From Pseudomonadota bacterium (GTDB lineage Bacteria; Pseudomonadota; Alphaproteobacteria; Micavibrionales; UBA2020): a stretch of DNA of 64,000 bases. This document shows, one piece after another, positions 45,050 to 51,168 of the stretch (position 1 is the stretch's first letter; every line of letters starts with the position of its first letter). The stretch spans positions 1-64,000 of the forward strand of contig JAJZVA010000013.1 of assembly GCA_021845905.1 (NCBI GenBank), written 5' to 3'. The position numbers and the translations under genes are program-made. The notes beneath the pieces were generated by a model. That model was not told where the DNA came from, searched no databases, and saw nothing but the letters and a program-made list of their open reading frames with translations.

Positions 45050-48000
45050 ATGGTCCAGTTTAACAGGCTCAGGCTCACCGGGTTCAAATCCTTCGTCGAG
45101 CACACGGAACTTGAAATCGGCAAAGGCCTCACCGGTATCATCGGCCCCAACGGTTGCGGCAAGTCCAACATCGTCGAAGCGATCCGCTGGGCGATGGGCG
45201 AAAACTCGCCCAAGCGCATGCGCTCGAGCGACATGGACGACGTGATCTTCGCGGGTACGGAGCGCCGCCCCGCCCGCAACACGGCGGAAGTCACTCTTTT
45301 GCTGGACAATTCCGACCGCACCGCACCTGCCGAACTGAACGATTCCGACGAGCTTGAAATCTCCCGCAAGATCGAGCGCGACGTCGGCTCCACATACAAA
45401 GTGAACGGCAAGAATGTCCGCATGCGCGACGTGCAACTGCTGTTCGCCGATTCATCGGTCGGCGCGCACTCGCCCGCGCTGGTGAGCCAGGGCCGCGTCT
45501 CCGACATGATCAACGCCAAGCCGACCCAGCGCCGCATGGTGCTGGAAGAAGCCGCGGGCATCTCGGGCCTGCACGCCCGCCGTCACGAGGCGGAACTGAA
45601 ACTCCGCGCCGCAGAAACCAACCTCACCCGCGTCGAGGACGTGCTCGGCTCGATGAACGTCCAGCTTGAATCCCTGAAGAAGCAGGCGCGTCAGGCATCC
45701 CGCTACCGCAATCTCAGCGGCCATATCCAGACGGCGGAAGGCGGACTGCTCTATCTGCGCTGGATGGAAAGCGCCACCGCCGTCACCGCCGCGCTCGCCG
45801 CGTTCGAGGAAGCGGAAAATATCGTCCGCGAGAAAACCCTCGCCGTCACCGAACTCACCACCAAACAGACGGAAGCCGCCGCGCAACTGCCCGATCTGCG
45901 CCAGAGCGAAGCCGAAGCCGCCGCCGCGTTGCAACGCCTGAAGCTGGCTTACGGCACGCTGGAAGGTGAAGAGCGTCAGGTCGCGGAAGAACGCGCCAAA
46001 TCCGAACAGATGATCGCGCAATACAATGCCGACGTCGCGCACGAAACCGCGCAAAAAACCGAAGCCGCGCAAACCATCGAGCGTCTCGCGCTTGAAAACG
46101 CCGAACTGACCGCCGCTGCGCTGGCGCAAACGGACAGCGAAGAGGAAGCGCGCCTGCTCGCCGAAGAGCAGCAGAACGCCGTCGAAAAACTTGAATTCGC
46201 GCTGACGGAACTGACCGAGGAAACCGCCGCGCAGGAAGCCGAACGCGCGTCCGCCGAGCGCCGTATCGCCGATTTCGTCCGCCGCCATGAACAGCTTGAA
46301 GCGCGCAAGGCAGGCTTTGAATCCGAGCATGCGGATCTGATCGCCAACACCCCCGCGAAGACCGAACTGGATGAAATCACCGCCGCGCTGTCCTCCGCCG
46401 AAGAAGAAACGCAAAAGGCCGCCGCAGAAATCGAAAGCGCGGAAGGCGCGCGCAACGCCGTTGAAACGGCGCTGCAGGGAGCGACGGAAAAATTCCAGGA
46501 ACAGCAGAAAATTTCCAGCCAGCTGAACGCCGAGGCGGAAGCCTTGCGCCGGGTTTTGCGCACCGAGCAGACGGATTTCGAACCCGTGCTCGATCAGCTG
46601 ACCGTCTCCTCCGGCCTTGAACGCGCCCTTGCCGTCGCGCTGGGCGACGACCTGCAAGCCGCGCTCGACGGCGCCGCGCCGATCTACTGGCGCGACCTGC
46701 CCGACTTCGCTTCGGCGACCGCTCTGCCTTCCGCCGCCAAGCCGCTGTCGGAATGCGTCACAGGACCGCATGCGTTAAGCCGCGTTCTTTCGCAAATCGG
46801 CATCGTCGAAAACCGCGAAACTGCCGAACAACTGATGGCGCAACTGCAACCCGGCCAGTGCCTCGTCACGGCCGACGGCGGCGCGTGGCGCTGGGACGGG
46901 CTCGTCGTTTCGCCCGATGCGGAGAATGCCGCCGCGATCCGCCTGCAGCAGAAAAACCGCCTTGCCGAACTCGAAACCGAAATCACGGGCGCTCAGGAAC
47001 AGCTTGAATCCGCCCGCGCCGCGCTCGAAAGCGTCAGGGAAGAGCGCGCCCGCGTGACCGAGCGCGTCAACGCCGCGCGTCAGGCCGCGCGCACGGCGGG
47101 CGAAAACCTGAACACGCTCCGCCGCCGCCACGCGCAACTGACCAACCAGCTGGCGGAAGTCACGGCGCGTCTTGCCAGCCTTGCGACCTCGATCGAAAAC
47201 GCCGCGCAGGAAATCGACGCCCTCGCGACGCAAATCTCCGAGGCGCGCGAAGCTTTCGCCGCCCTGCCCGACACGGCGGAGAGCCGCGAAAGAATCGCCG
47301 CGATGAAAACGGATCTCGGCGCGCAGCGCCAGACGCTCGTCGAGCGTCAGACCGCCTATGCGGAAATCCGCCGCGCCGGAGAAGCCCGCGCCCGCCGCAT
47401 GGGGCAGGTCAATGACGAAATGTCGAACTGGAACGCACGCGTGGAGCGCATTGTCTTGCGTCTTGCCGAACTCGCCGAGCGCATCCAGCTTGCCGAGGAA
47501 ACCTTGAGCCGTCTTGCCGAGCGCCCCGCGCAGATCGAGCAGGAAAAACAGGCGCTGATGACGCACATTACGACCGCCGAAGAAAAACGCCAGCACGCCG
47601 CCGACGCGCTTGTTTCAGCGGAAAACGTCGCCAATGAAACGCAACGCGAACTCCGCGCCGCCGACAACGCCCTTTCCGACGCGCGCGAGGCGCGGGCGAT
47701 GGCGCAGGCGGGCGTCAATACCTCGCAACATACGCAAAGCGGCATCGAAGCGCAGATACAGGAAAAATTCGCCTGCGTGCCCGAGCAAATGGTGACAAAG
47801 CTGGAGCTCATCGTGGAAGATCTTCCCTCCATCGACGAGCTGCACGGCAAGCTGGAGCGCCTTGTCCGCGAACGCGACAACATGGGGCCGGTCAACCTCC
47901 GCGCCGAAGTCGAAAGCCAGGAAATCACCGACCAGATGACGGGCATGCAGACCGAGCGCGACGACCTCGTCGCCGCGATCGAAAAGCTCCGCGAGGGCAT

Positions 48001-48514
48001 CAACAAACTCAACAAGGAAGCGCGCGACCGCCTGCTTAGCGCGTTCGACACGGTCAATGCGCACTTCCAGTCTCTGTTCACCCGCCTCTTCAACGGCGGC
48101 GCGGCCTATCTCAAATTGATCGAGGCAGATGATCCGTTGCAGTCCGGCCTTGAAATCTACGCCCAGCCGCCGGGCAAAAAGACCTCCGTCCTGTCGTTGC
48201 TTTCCGGCGGTGAACAGACGCTGACCTCCATCGCTCTCATCTTCGCGATGTTCCTGACGAACCCTGCGCCGATCTGCGTGCTGGACGAAGTCGACGCCCC
48301 GCTGGACGAAAGCAACGTCGACCGCTACTGCATGTTGCTGGAAAAGATTTCCGAGGAATGCGACACGCGCTTTCTCGTCATCACCCACCACCGCATGACG
48401 ATGGCGCGGATGGACCGCCTCTACGGAGTGACGATGAGCGAAAAAGGCGTCTCGCAGCTTGTCTCGGTCGATCTCAAGCAGCACGCGCTGGATCTTGAAG
48501 ATCAGGCCGCCTGA
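45050..48514 (+). CDS. smc: Chromosome segregation protein SMC
   Basis: LTGFKSFVEHTELEIGKGLTGIIGPNGCGKSNIVEAIRWAMGE, long coiled coils, LSLLSGGEQTLTSIALIFAMFLTNPAPICVLDEVDAPLDESNVDR. Confidence 0.97.
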   Translation: MVQFNRLRLTGFKSFVEHTELEIGKGLTGIIGPNGCGKSNIVEAIRWAMGENSPKRMRSSDMDDVIFAGTERRPARNTAEVTLLLDNSDRTAPAELNDSDELEISRKIERDVGSTYKVNGKNVRMRDVQLLFADSSVGAHSPALVSQGRVSDMINAKPTQRRMVLEEAAGISGLHARRHEAELKLRAAETNLTRVEDVLGSMNVQLESLKKQARQASRYRNLSGHIQTAEGGLLYLRWMESATAVTAALAAFEEAENIVREKTLAVTELTTKQTEAAAQLPDLRQSEAEAAAALQRLKLAYGTLEGEERQVAEERAKSEQMIAQYNADVAHETAQKTEAAQTIERLALENAELTAAALAQTDSEEEARLLAEEQQNAVEKLEFALTELTEETAAQEAERASAERRIADFVRRHEQLEARKAGFESEHADLIANTPAKTELDEITAALSSAEEETQKAAAEIESAEGARNAVETALQGATEKFQEQQKISSQLNAEAEALRRVLRTEQTDFEPVLDQLTVSSGLERALAVALGDDLQAALDGAAPIYWRDLPDFASATALPSAAKPLSECVTGPHALSRVLSQIGIVENRETAEQLMAQLQPGQCLVTADGGAWRWDGLVVSPDAENAAAIRLQQKNRLAELETEITGAQEQLESARAALESVREERARVTERVNAARQAARTAGENLNTLRRRHAQLTNQLAEVTARLASLATSIENAAQEIDALATQISEAREAFAALPDTAESRERIAAMKTDLGAQRQTLVERQTAYAEIRRAGEARARRMGQVNDEMSNWNARVERIVLRLAELAERIQLAEETLSRLAERPAQIEQEKQALMTHITTAEEKRQHAADALVSAENVANETQRELRAADNALSDAREARAMAQAGVNTSQHTQSGIEAQIQEKFACVPEQMVTKLELIVEDLPSIDELHGKLERLVRERDNMGPVNLRAEVESQEITDQMTGMQTERDDLVAAIEKLREGINKLNKEARDRLLSAFDTVNAHFQSLFTRLFNGGAAYLKLIEADDPLQSGLEIYAQPPGKKTSVLSLLSGGEQTLTSIALIFAMFLTNPAPICVLDEVDAPLDESNVDRYCMLLEKISEECDTRFLVITHHRMTMARMDRLYGVTMSEKGVSQLVSVDLKQHALDLEDQAA

Positions 48515-48612
48515 ACGCAACGTTTCAGAACATAGGTTGGAAGCATCAGGCCCATGCCATCGTGCTCTGAGCGCTTGTATCATGCCTCTGCATTCCATTG
48601 TTATATAATACG

Positions 48613-48627
48613 TTAATGATATATTAA
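48613..48627 (+). promoter_or_regulatory. Candidate CtrA site TTAA-N7-TTAA
   Basis: TTAA TGATATA TTAA, 45 bp upstream of the 518-aa ORF; AT-rich surroundings. Confidence 0.3.
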
Positions 48628-48671
48628 TTATATATGTATATCATGGCCTTATTAAAGAATGAGGTCAGCAC

Positions 48672-50228
48672 ATGTCAGAGCAAGTTCCAGTCATCGAATC
48701 CACCGCTCCGGAACAACTAAAAGTTTTTTCAGACTTTGTAACGGCTCTGCGTGAAGACAACGTGGCCGCGGCCATCAACGAAGCCGAGCGACTGACGCCT
48801 TACTTCAGCGCTTTATCCAAACAGCTCGACCTTGATGCGGCGATCAACCCTCAAAAAGCCGCCGCGGTGCGCGATTTGACAAGCCCGGGCGCGCTCAAGA
48901 GCGTTTTCAACGCCGTCGCCGCGCGCACCAAAAACACGATTTTGTCGGAGATCGCGATCATCCCGGAAGCTGTTCTGCGATTTGAAACCGCAAATGAGAC
49001 GCAATATTCCGGGCCGCTGAATTATAAAGGCAAAAACTTTATCAACTTCGGCTTCATACAGGTTTTTAACGCCAACAGGACAAGCGGCACCAGCTTTCCC
49101 ATTCTTGCGTTCAACGACAGCCTCATGAAAACAATCGCGCCGCACCGGCCGAAAGCCATGCTCGAAGCGTTGCAAACGGTCGCGACGGCGGGCAATCACG
49201 ACATGCTCCATCATTATACCAACACCATCCTGAACCCCAATATTTCCTGCACGAGGATGGACAAAAAAGACTTTCCCGATCCTGTAATGGAGGTAAGAGA
49301 TTGGCAGAAAACGCATTTCAATGGCTATATAAGCGATCGTTCCGAGGATAGTTTCGAAAGCTGGCTGATGCTGAACCATATGCGCGTGCGCGAATTGATG
49401 AAAGACACGCATGAGGAAGAAGCCTTGAAACAATCCTGCGATACGTTCTTCGACGAGCTGGGACGGATTGGCGGGGAAATATCCACCGCGACATCCGCCA
49501 AGCAAGCGCATGAAACGGTTGATCGTTTCGGCATCGCCTTGCTTTTCACGATGATGCGCTATCTACCGCTCGATCACCCGCTGATCGATCACGCCATTGA
49601 ACGCTTTCAGCAGGTTGATCCCGATCCCCGCTCTCTGGAATTGGAAAGATCCGCTCTCGTAAGACAATCACAGTCCCAAATGGAGCACTGGGTCGTTCAA
49701 ACCCTGGCGAACTACAGAGCGAAGGGCGTGGAGTTACTGCCCGAAAATCCCGACTATGCCGCCTTGAGAAAGCTCCAGCTCATCCAGATAGAACCGGCGA
49801 TCGTGCATCTTTTAAGCCCGGCCCAACCCGGCACTTTTTTGGAGAAGATAAAGAAGAACAACCGCCTCGGCGAAATCAACCTCGACATGATCAGCACTTC
49901 TGCCGCTGGAATCTGGTTCGACCTCGCGGACGGCAAGCACACTTTCGTCAAGCCGGACGGAACAACAGTTGAGGCCTGGATCAAGGACGGAAAATACCAC
50001 CGCGGCAATGAACCCGCGCGCATCACGACGTGGCCGGACGGAACGATGGAACAATTCTGGTACAAAAATGGAAGCATGTTCCGCTCATCCTCGGTGAAAC
50101 CCGGTGGAAAGGCCGAAGTACACGACTATGAAGCGGCAGAAGAGCCGGAATCCTTGGAAAAGTATTTAGAAAGATATTGGTCGCAAGCCCCCAGAAAAAC
50201 AAAACCGGGAACCCCATCCAGTTCATAA
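48672..50228 (+). CDS. Uncharacterised 518-aa protein with a C-terminal 'DGKYHR..PA' repeat-like segment
   Basis: Long ORF with ATG; no family recognised in the N-terminal ~400 aa; C-terminus ..VEAWIKDGKYHRGNEPARITTWPDGTMEQFWYKNGSMFR. Confidence 0.85.
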   Translation: MSEQVPVIESTAPEQLKVFSDFVTALREDNVAAAINEAERLTPYFSALSKQLDLDAAINPQKAAAVRDLTSPGALKSVFNAVAARTKNTILSEIAIIPEAVLRFETANETQYSGPLNYKGKNFINFGFIQVFNANRTSGTSFPILAFNDSLMKTIAPHRPKAMLEALQTVATAGNHDMLHHYTNTILNPNISCTRMDKKDFPDPVMEVRDWQKTHFNGYISDRSEDSFESWLMLNHMRVRELMKDTHEEEALKQSCDTFFDELGRIGGEISTATSAKQAHETVDRFGIALLFTMMRYLPLDHPLIDHAIERFQQVDPDPRSLELERSALVRQSQSQMEHWVVQTLANYRAKGVELLPENPDYAALRKLQLIQIEPAIVHLLSPAQPGTFLEKIKKNNRLGEINLDMISTSAAGIWFDLADGKHTFVKPDGTTVEAWIKDGKYHRGNEPARITTWPDGTMEQFWYKNGSMFRSSSVKPGGKAEVHDYEAAEEPESLEKYLERYWSQAPRKTKPGTPSSS

Positions 50229-50235
50229 AGCATCT

Positions 50236-51168
50236 TCAGCTCTGTTTCGCCAGTTCCGTTTCCTTTTTCGCCGGAGCGGGCTCGCGGCGCAGGTTCATGT
50301 AGAGCAGGATCGGCGACGCGACGAAGATCGATGAATAGGTGCCGACGACGATCCCCACCAGCATCGCGTACGTGAAGCCGCGGATGACCTCCGGCCCGAA
50401 GATCAGCAACGCCAGCATGGCGAGGAAGGTCATCATGCTGGTCATCATCGTGCGCGAGAGCGTCTGGTTGACCGAAAGGTTGAAGACGTCCGGCAGAGGC
50501 ATCTTGCGGAATTTACGCAGGTTCTCGCGGATGCGGTCGAAGACGACGACGGTATCGTTGATCGAATAGCCCGCGACCAGCAAAACGGCAGCGACGGTCG
50601 AGAGGTCGAATTCATACTGCGTGAGGGTGAAGAAGAGCAACGTCGCGCAGACGTCGTGCGCCAGCGCGATACAGCCTGTGATGCCGAACTGCCACTCGAA
50701 CCGCACCCAGATATAAAGCAAAATGCCGATCATCGAATAAATGAAAGCCTTGATGCCGACCATGATCAGCTCATGCCCGACCTGCGGCCCGACGTATTCC
50801 GCTCGGCGGAACTCGACCTTGTTGTGCAAAAGCGTGCTGATTTCGGCATAGAGCTCCTTGCGCGTCACATGCGCGGCTTCCTTGCCGGGGATTTTGACCA
50901 TCACCTCGCCGTTGCCGAATTCCTGAATGGTCGGCGCGCCGGTGCTGAGCTTGGACAGCGCTTCGCGCACCTCTCCGATATGCACGGCCATCGGCGTCTT
51001 GATTTCAACCAGCAAGCCGCCGGTGAAGTCGATCCCGAGGTTAAGCCCGCGGGTAAAAAGCAGCACGACGGATAACACCATCATCGCCCCCGAAAGGAAG
51101 AGCGCGAGCTTGTGAATGCTCATGAATTTGACTTTGGTGTCGTCCTTGACGATTCTGAAACGGAGCAT
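50236..51168 (-). CDS. secF: Protein translocase subunit SecF
   Basis: GLNLGIDFTGGLLVEIKTP, GYSINDTVVVFDRIRENLRK. Confidence 0.96.
   Translation of the reverse strand: MLRFRIVKDDTKVKFMSIHKLALFLSGAMMVLSVVLLFTRGLNLGIDFTGGLLVEIKTPMAVHIGEVREALSKLSTGAPTIQEFGNGEVMVKIPGKEAAHVTRKELYAEISTLLHNKVEFRRAEYVGPQVGHELIMVGIKAFIYSMIGILLYIWVRFEWQFGITGCIALAHDVCATLLFFTLTQYEFDLSTVAAVLLVAGYSINDTVVVFDRIRENLRKFRKMPLPDVFNLSVNQTLSRTMMTSMMTFLAMLALLIFGPEVIRGFTYAMLVGIVVGTYSSIFVASPILLYMNLRREPAPAKKETELAKQS

Follow-up and report, generated by a model that had tools for sequence, protein, structure and literature searches.

The 518-residue protein encoded at positions 48672–50228 of the window, the 64,000-nucleotide stretch of DNA that was analysed, belongs to a previously unnamed family that is patchily distributed within one alphaproteobacterial order, lies outside Pfam, NCBIfam, PHROGs and PADLOC, and is under purifying selection. 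It is a real, selected, undescribed and lineage-restricted family with a probable metal site. Our main reading, to which we assign a probability of roughly 45%, is that the N-terminal domain of this undescribed family is a metal-dependent enzyme, with a hydrolase as the first candidate, that the C-terminal repeats are an optional binding appendage, and that the protein is soluble and encoded by a stand-alone accessory gene.

The open reading frame is real and intact, running from an ATG at 48672 to a TAA at 50228 on the + strand, and the following features were assigned to it and to the region upstream.

48515–48671, + strand: probable promoter of a monocistronic gene, an AT-rich intergenic region (38.9% GC) with sigma-70-like matches, which are consensus matches only
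48672–50228, + strand: whole protein, member of an undescribed, order-restricted family (family profile searches)
48672–49910, + strand: N-terminal family domain, residues ~1–413, mixed alpha/beta in models, no known fold match (AlphaFold models, Foldseek)
49194–49214, + strand: N175-H176-D177-M178-L179-H180-H181, predicted metal site (H176, D177 and H180 in 23/23 members)
49356–49358, + strand: E229, predicted fourth site residue, where a long helix begins (23/23), with H236 seven residues further on (18/23)
49914–50111, + strand: beta-rich C-terminal tail, residues ~415–480, MORN-like (model, repeat HMM, Foldseek)
49977–50045, + strand: clear DG-HR-GPA repeat, residues 436–458 (repeat HMM)

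The smc gene (45050–48514, + strand) ends 157 bp upstream of this frame on the shared strand, and secF (50236–51168, − strand) is convergent with it. Because secF lies on the opposite strand and converges, the gene has no operon partner, as a preliminary description made from the DNA sequence had supposed. That description also proposed a separate AT-rich promoter region, and the gap after smc fits this: its GC content is 38.9% compared to 57.1% for the window, and it contains all five sigma-70-like matches found in the 2 kb scanned, where 1.1 would be expected by shuffling. GC3 was 0.63 for the 518-residue gene compared to 0.78 for smc and 0.83 for secF; lower values of this kind are often seen in genes that are accessory or acquired. 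As an accessory gene it stands alone in the smc–secF gap. At the same junction, genomes G004 and G005 carry an unrelated 367-residue ORF on the opposite strand with a HAD-type look, and G007 carries a HIT-like ORF of 125 residues (both named by eye), and the junction may be a site tolerant of accessory genes; components of mobile elements were not noticed in the sequence read. The variable junction corresponds to 48515–50235 in the window and to loci L056, L058 and L062 in congeners. When the ORFs surrounding 20 loci of the family, in stretches of up to 17 kb, were clustered, neighbours proved to be conserved within genera only, which rules against a conserved operon partner. These neighbours are housekeeping genes (lon, pgsA, murD) or unrelated ORFs, again named by eye, and no genomic partner hinting at a substrate emerged across the 20 loci clustered.

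To place the protein among known families, we compared it with sequence, profile and defence-system collections. It had no match above noise in Pfam, PHROGs or NCBIfam and none among PDB sequences; five family members matched no PADLOC model; a profile of 21 members found nothing credible in the PDB; and members scanned singly against Pfam gave only scattered sub-threshold matches. The weak Pfam matches (HEPN_MAE_28990, SnoaL_2, CFSR and Peptidase_S28) were below cut-off, mostly confined to single members and inconsistent, and were treated as chance. A literature search returned nothing on DUF6745 or the HDxxH motif. The statement that the first ~400 residues match no recognisable family was thus upheld, and no strong full-length match to a characterised family was found. 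The label "orphan" holds with respect to known families, yet the protein is no singleton, as 22 other members were found.

Profile searches over 142 genomes of the order, which identified the family in 16 genomes initially and in 17 with a broader profile, recovered 23 proteins in these 17 genomes, representing 10 of 54 genera. When genome contigs were searched with a single sequence no match was returned, and an alignment query was needed to find members. Among 55 relatives searched, G007, which belongs to the same genus, contained one copy 57% identical to the window protein and two more copies, and G021, G017 and G052 contained single copies. The window protein groups with the three G007 copies in a tree (support 100/99), and two of the eight genomes of the window's genus carry the family. 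In wider samples, the sole genome that the family profile matched was the window's own, both among 385 genomes sampled from the class (four listed as the same order) and among 399 sampled from the phylum, the two samples overlapping. The phylogenetic spread proposed for checking therefore exists within the order, and the class and phylum samples gave no relative beyond it. Searches of viral contigs (IMG/VR), phages and plasmids found no relative of the N-terminal domain, one Bordetella plasmid matching the repeat only, and a viral or mobile origin was rejected on these grounds.

Exactly six residues, A83, F128, H176, D177, H180 and E229, are invariant in all 23 members, and they are retained even by the most distant ones, which are ~17–20% identical to the window protein. 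Near-invariant positions include F79 and G127 (22/23), N175 (21/23), H236 (18/23) and H181 (16/23). The stretch GNHDMLHHYTNTILNP (residues 174–189) had been singled out earlier as a histidine motif that could bind metal, and three of its residues, H176, D177 and H180, proved to be among the invariant six; its GNHDMLHHYTN motif includes H-D-x-x-H, and the spacing in the window protein is H-D-x-x-H-x(48)-E. Invariance at only six positions is what one would expect if they served metal binding or catalysis, and not if the protein were a mere scaffold. With invariant H, D, H and E amid freely diverging sequence, a metal site is the simplest reading, and H176, D177, H180 and E229 are predicted, by sequence conservation, to form one putative site. 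Signatures of neutral evolution, which the preliminary description had asked about, were not found: these four residues never vary, and dN/dS was 0.06 for the G052/G085 orthologues, the closest orthologue pair, synonymous sites in other pairs being saturated or nearly so. In the G126/G125 pair the family protein is 64% identical compared to 91% for the neighbouring murD product, and the family protein is therefore fast-evolving outside its conserved core. Comparison of distant halves of the family with each other by hhalign gave a probability of 100%.

We also modelled two members with AlphaFold2, using a six-sequence alignment for each. The model of the window protein had a pLDDT of 77 and a pTM of 0.77, and that of a repeat-free homologue with ~32% identity had a pLDDT of 73 and a pTM of 0.78. 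Both models share the same order of secondary structure: helices, a small sheet, two helices, the motif, a stretch that is only loosely predicted, and then long helices. In both, the HDMLHH motif falls at a helix break, with E229 in the first of the long helices that follow. Foldseek searches of the PDB with the two models, a check that had been suggested at the outset, returned no similar solved fold (best E values of 0.14 and 0.82).

The C-terminus is of the DG-HR-GPA repeat type, as the preliminary description had recognised. A repeat HMM built from a 953-residue copy in G007 and a repeat-only protein at L022 scored 24.1 bits on the window protein compared to a best score of 4.2 bits in 500 shuffles, which makes the repeat more than a chance resemblance, and the protein contains one full copy and a partial copy at residues 463–468. 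Repeat number varies widely in the family: 17 members have no repeat, three have one, and two others have about six (the G021 copy) and about 17. The last of these, the 953-residue G007 protein (L017:9428–12289), carries its ~17 units in tandem with a 27–28-residue period, and the two other G007 copies have one unit each. With numbers from 0 to about 17, the repeats are therefore an optional, expandable tail. When the window model was compared with viral predicted structures, the best Foldseek matches were mostly MORN-repeat proteins aligned over ~70 residues, with probabilities up to 1.00 and weak E values (0.06–0.3); the C-terminal beta tail is likely to be the part matched. Like proteins of the MORN_2 (PF07661) and DUF6745 (PF20530) type, the window protein has the DG-HR-GPA repeat, and the same unit occurs within the order at L022:5746–7203 (G049), which encodes a 485-residue protein that lacks the N-terminal domain, is made up nearly throughout of DG-HR-DGPA repeats and passes the PF20530 cut-off at one place. 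Unlike them, the window protein has only one to two copies, and most family members are repeat-free. The window protein matched neither PF07661 nor PF20530 in Pfam, and a relative at L019 scored 18.6 bits with PF07661, for which the cut-off is 29.6. A PF07661 search of the window's own genome is uninformative on absence, as no control genome gave a match either.

Several other explanations bear on the conserved residues. One is a zincin-like metalloprotease in which the glutamate of HExxH has become aspartate (HDxxH) and E229, 49 residues downstream, serves as the third zinc ligand. The family resembles gluzincins (Peptidase_M48, PF01435) in having two invariant histidines spaced three residues apart and, further downstream, an invariant glutamate, an H-x(3)-H plus E layout with H176, D177, H180 and E229 present in 23/23 members, but it differs in having aspartate in place of the catalytic glutamate in every member, so that HExxH is absent in 23/23. 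Moreover, no Pfam peptidase exceeded its cut-off, the top Foldseek matches included no zincin, the models place the motif at a helix break and not in one continuous helix, and hhalign against M48 proteins from relatives gave a probability of 0.1%; we consider this explanation quite unlikely, and assignment to the known zincin/M48 proteins was rejected. HD-domain phosphohydrolases (PF01966) share the invariant H-D pair, with the two residues side by side in a region that is mostly helical, whereas the family has no invariant upstream histidine or later aspartate (D284 occurs in 10/23). This assignment was rejected as well, the other ligands being absent, Pfam giving no match and hhalign a probability of 0.1%. 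Both hhalign values, obtained with M48 and HD profiles built from small samples of proteins of related genomes in which some loci yielded no sequence that could be used, were about the same as for a column-shuffled control. For M13 peptidases, no members were present among 16 sampled relatives for comparison.

The conserved residues might instead make up a structural site, for a metal or for hydrogen bonds, in a protein that has no catalytic role and serves for binding or as a scaffold, with the repeat tail as its working part. Strong variation in repeat number and divergence to ~17–20% identity between the invariant residues are what such a protein could show, but the 17 repeat-free members keep all four residues, which argues for a conserved function of the N-terminal domain, and this alternative falls on the unlikely side. 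A metal-dependent effector that enters other cells, be they prey, competitors or hosts, and binds its target through the repeats would fit an accessory, patchy, duplicated and fast-evolving gene and the occurrence of MORN-like repeats in giant-virus proteins. Such an effector is nonetheless unlikely: inspection by eye shows no signal peptide, the loci clustered have no conserved neighbour for secretion or immunity, and no toxin family matched. Very improbable, finally, is a defence protein that acts alone, against phages or otherwise. The gene is patchy and congeners carry different genes at the variable smc–secF junction, as might be expected of one, but the five members compared with PADLOC went unmatched, there were no defence genes among the neighbours read, and no relative was found on the phage side.

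The metal-dependent enzyme reading accommodates the N-terminal domain as the functional core, because members without repeats keep all four site residues. The ~410-residue domain would hold divalent metal, either one ion or two, by way of H176, D177, H180 and E229 and would use it for catalysis, our first guess for the enzyme being a hydrolase; profile, sequence and fold comparisons linked it to no enzyme. The MORN-like DG-HR-DGPA repeats, variable in number and often absent, would decide which partner, surface or substrate is met. The protein, having no evident signal peptide, would be made in soluble form from its own promoter, and its stand-alone accessory gene would have been gained, duplicated and lost within the order. 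A more tentative version of this proposal, which we regard as possible, is that the N-terminal domain constitutes a new, order-confined family of enzymes, perhaps also new in fold, that is organised around an H-D-x-x-H...E metal site and in which a MORN-like tail of 0 to about 17 copies sets the target. If it is a true enzyme with a new fold, it would add an entry to the metal-dependent chemistries from a poorly studied lineage. The natural repeat-free and repeat-rich versions, together with mutagenesis of H176, D177, H180 and E229, make these roles directly testable.

The family is multi-copy in some genomes. The loci concerned are L085:7653–10106, L088:7215–8198 and L089:6646–9929. Tandem or near-tandem copies occur in G128 (L085) and G139 (L089), and an ORF of ~2,480 residues with the look of a large adhesin adjoins family copies in G128 and G129.
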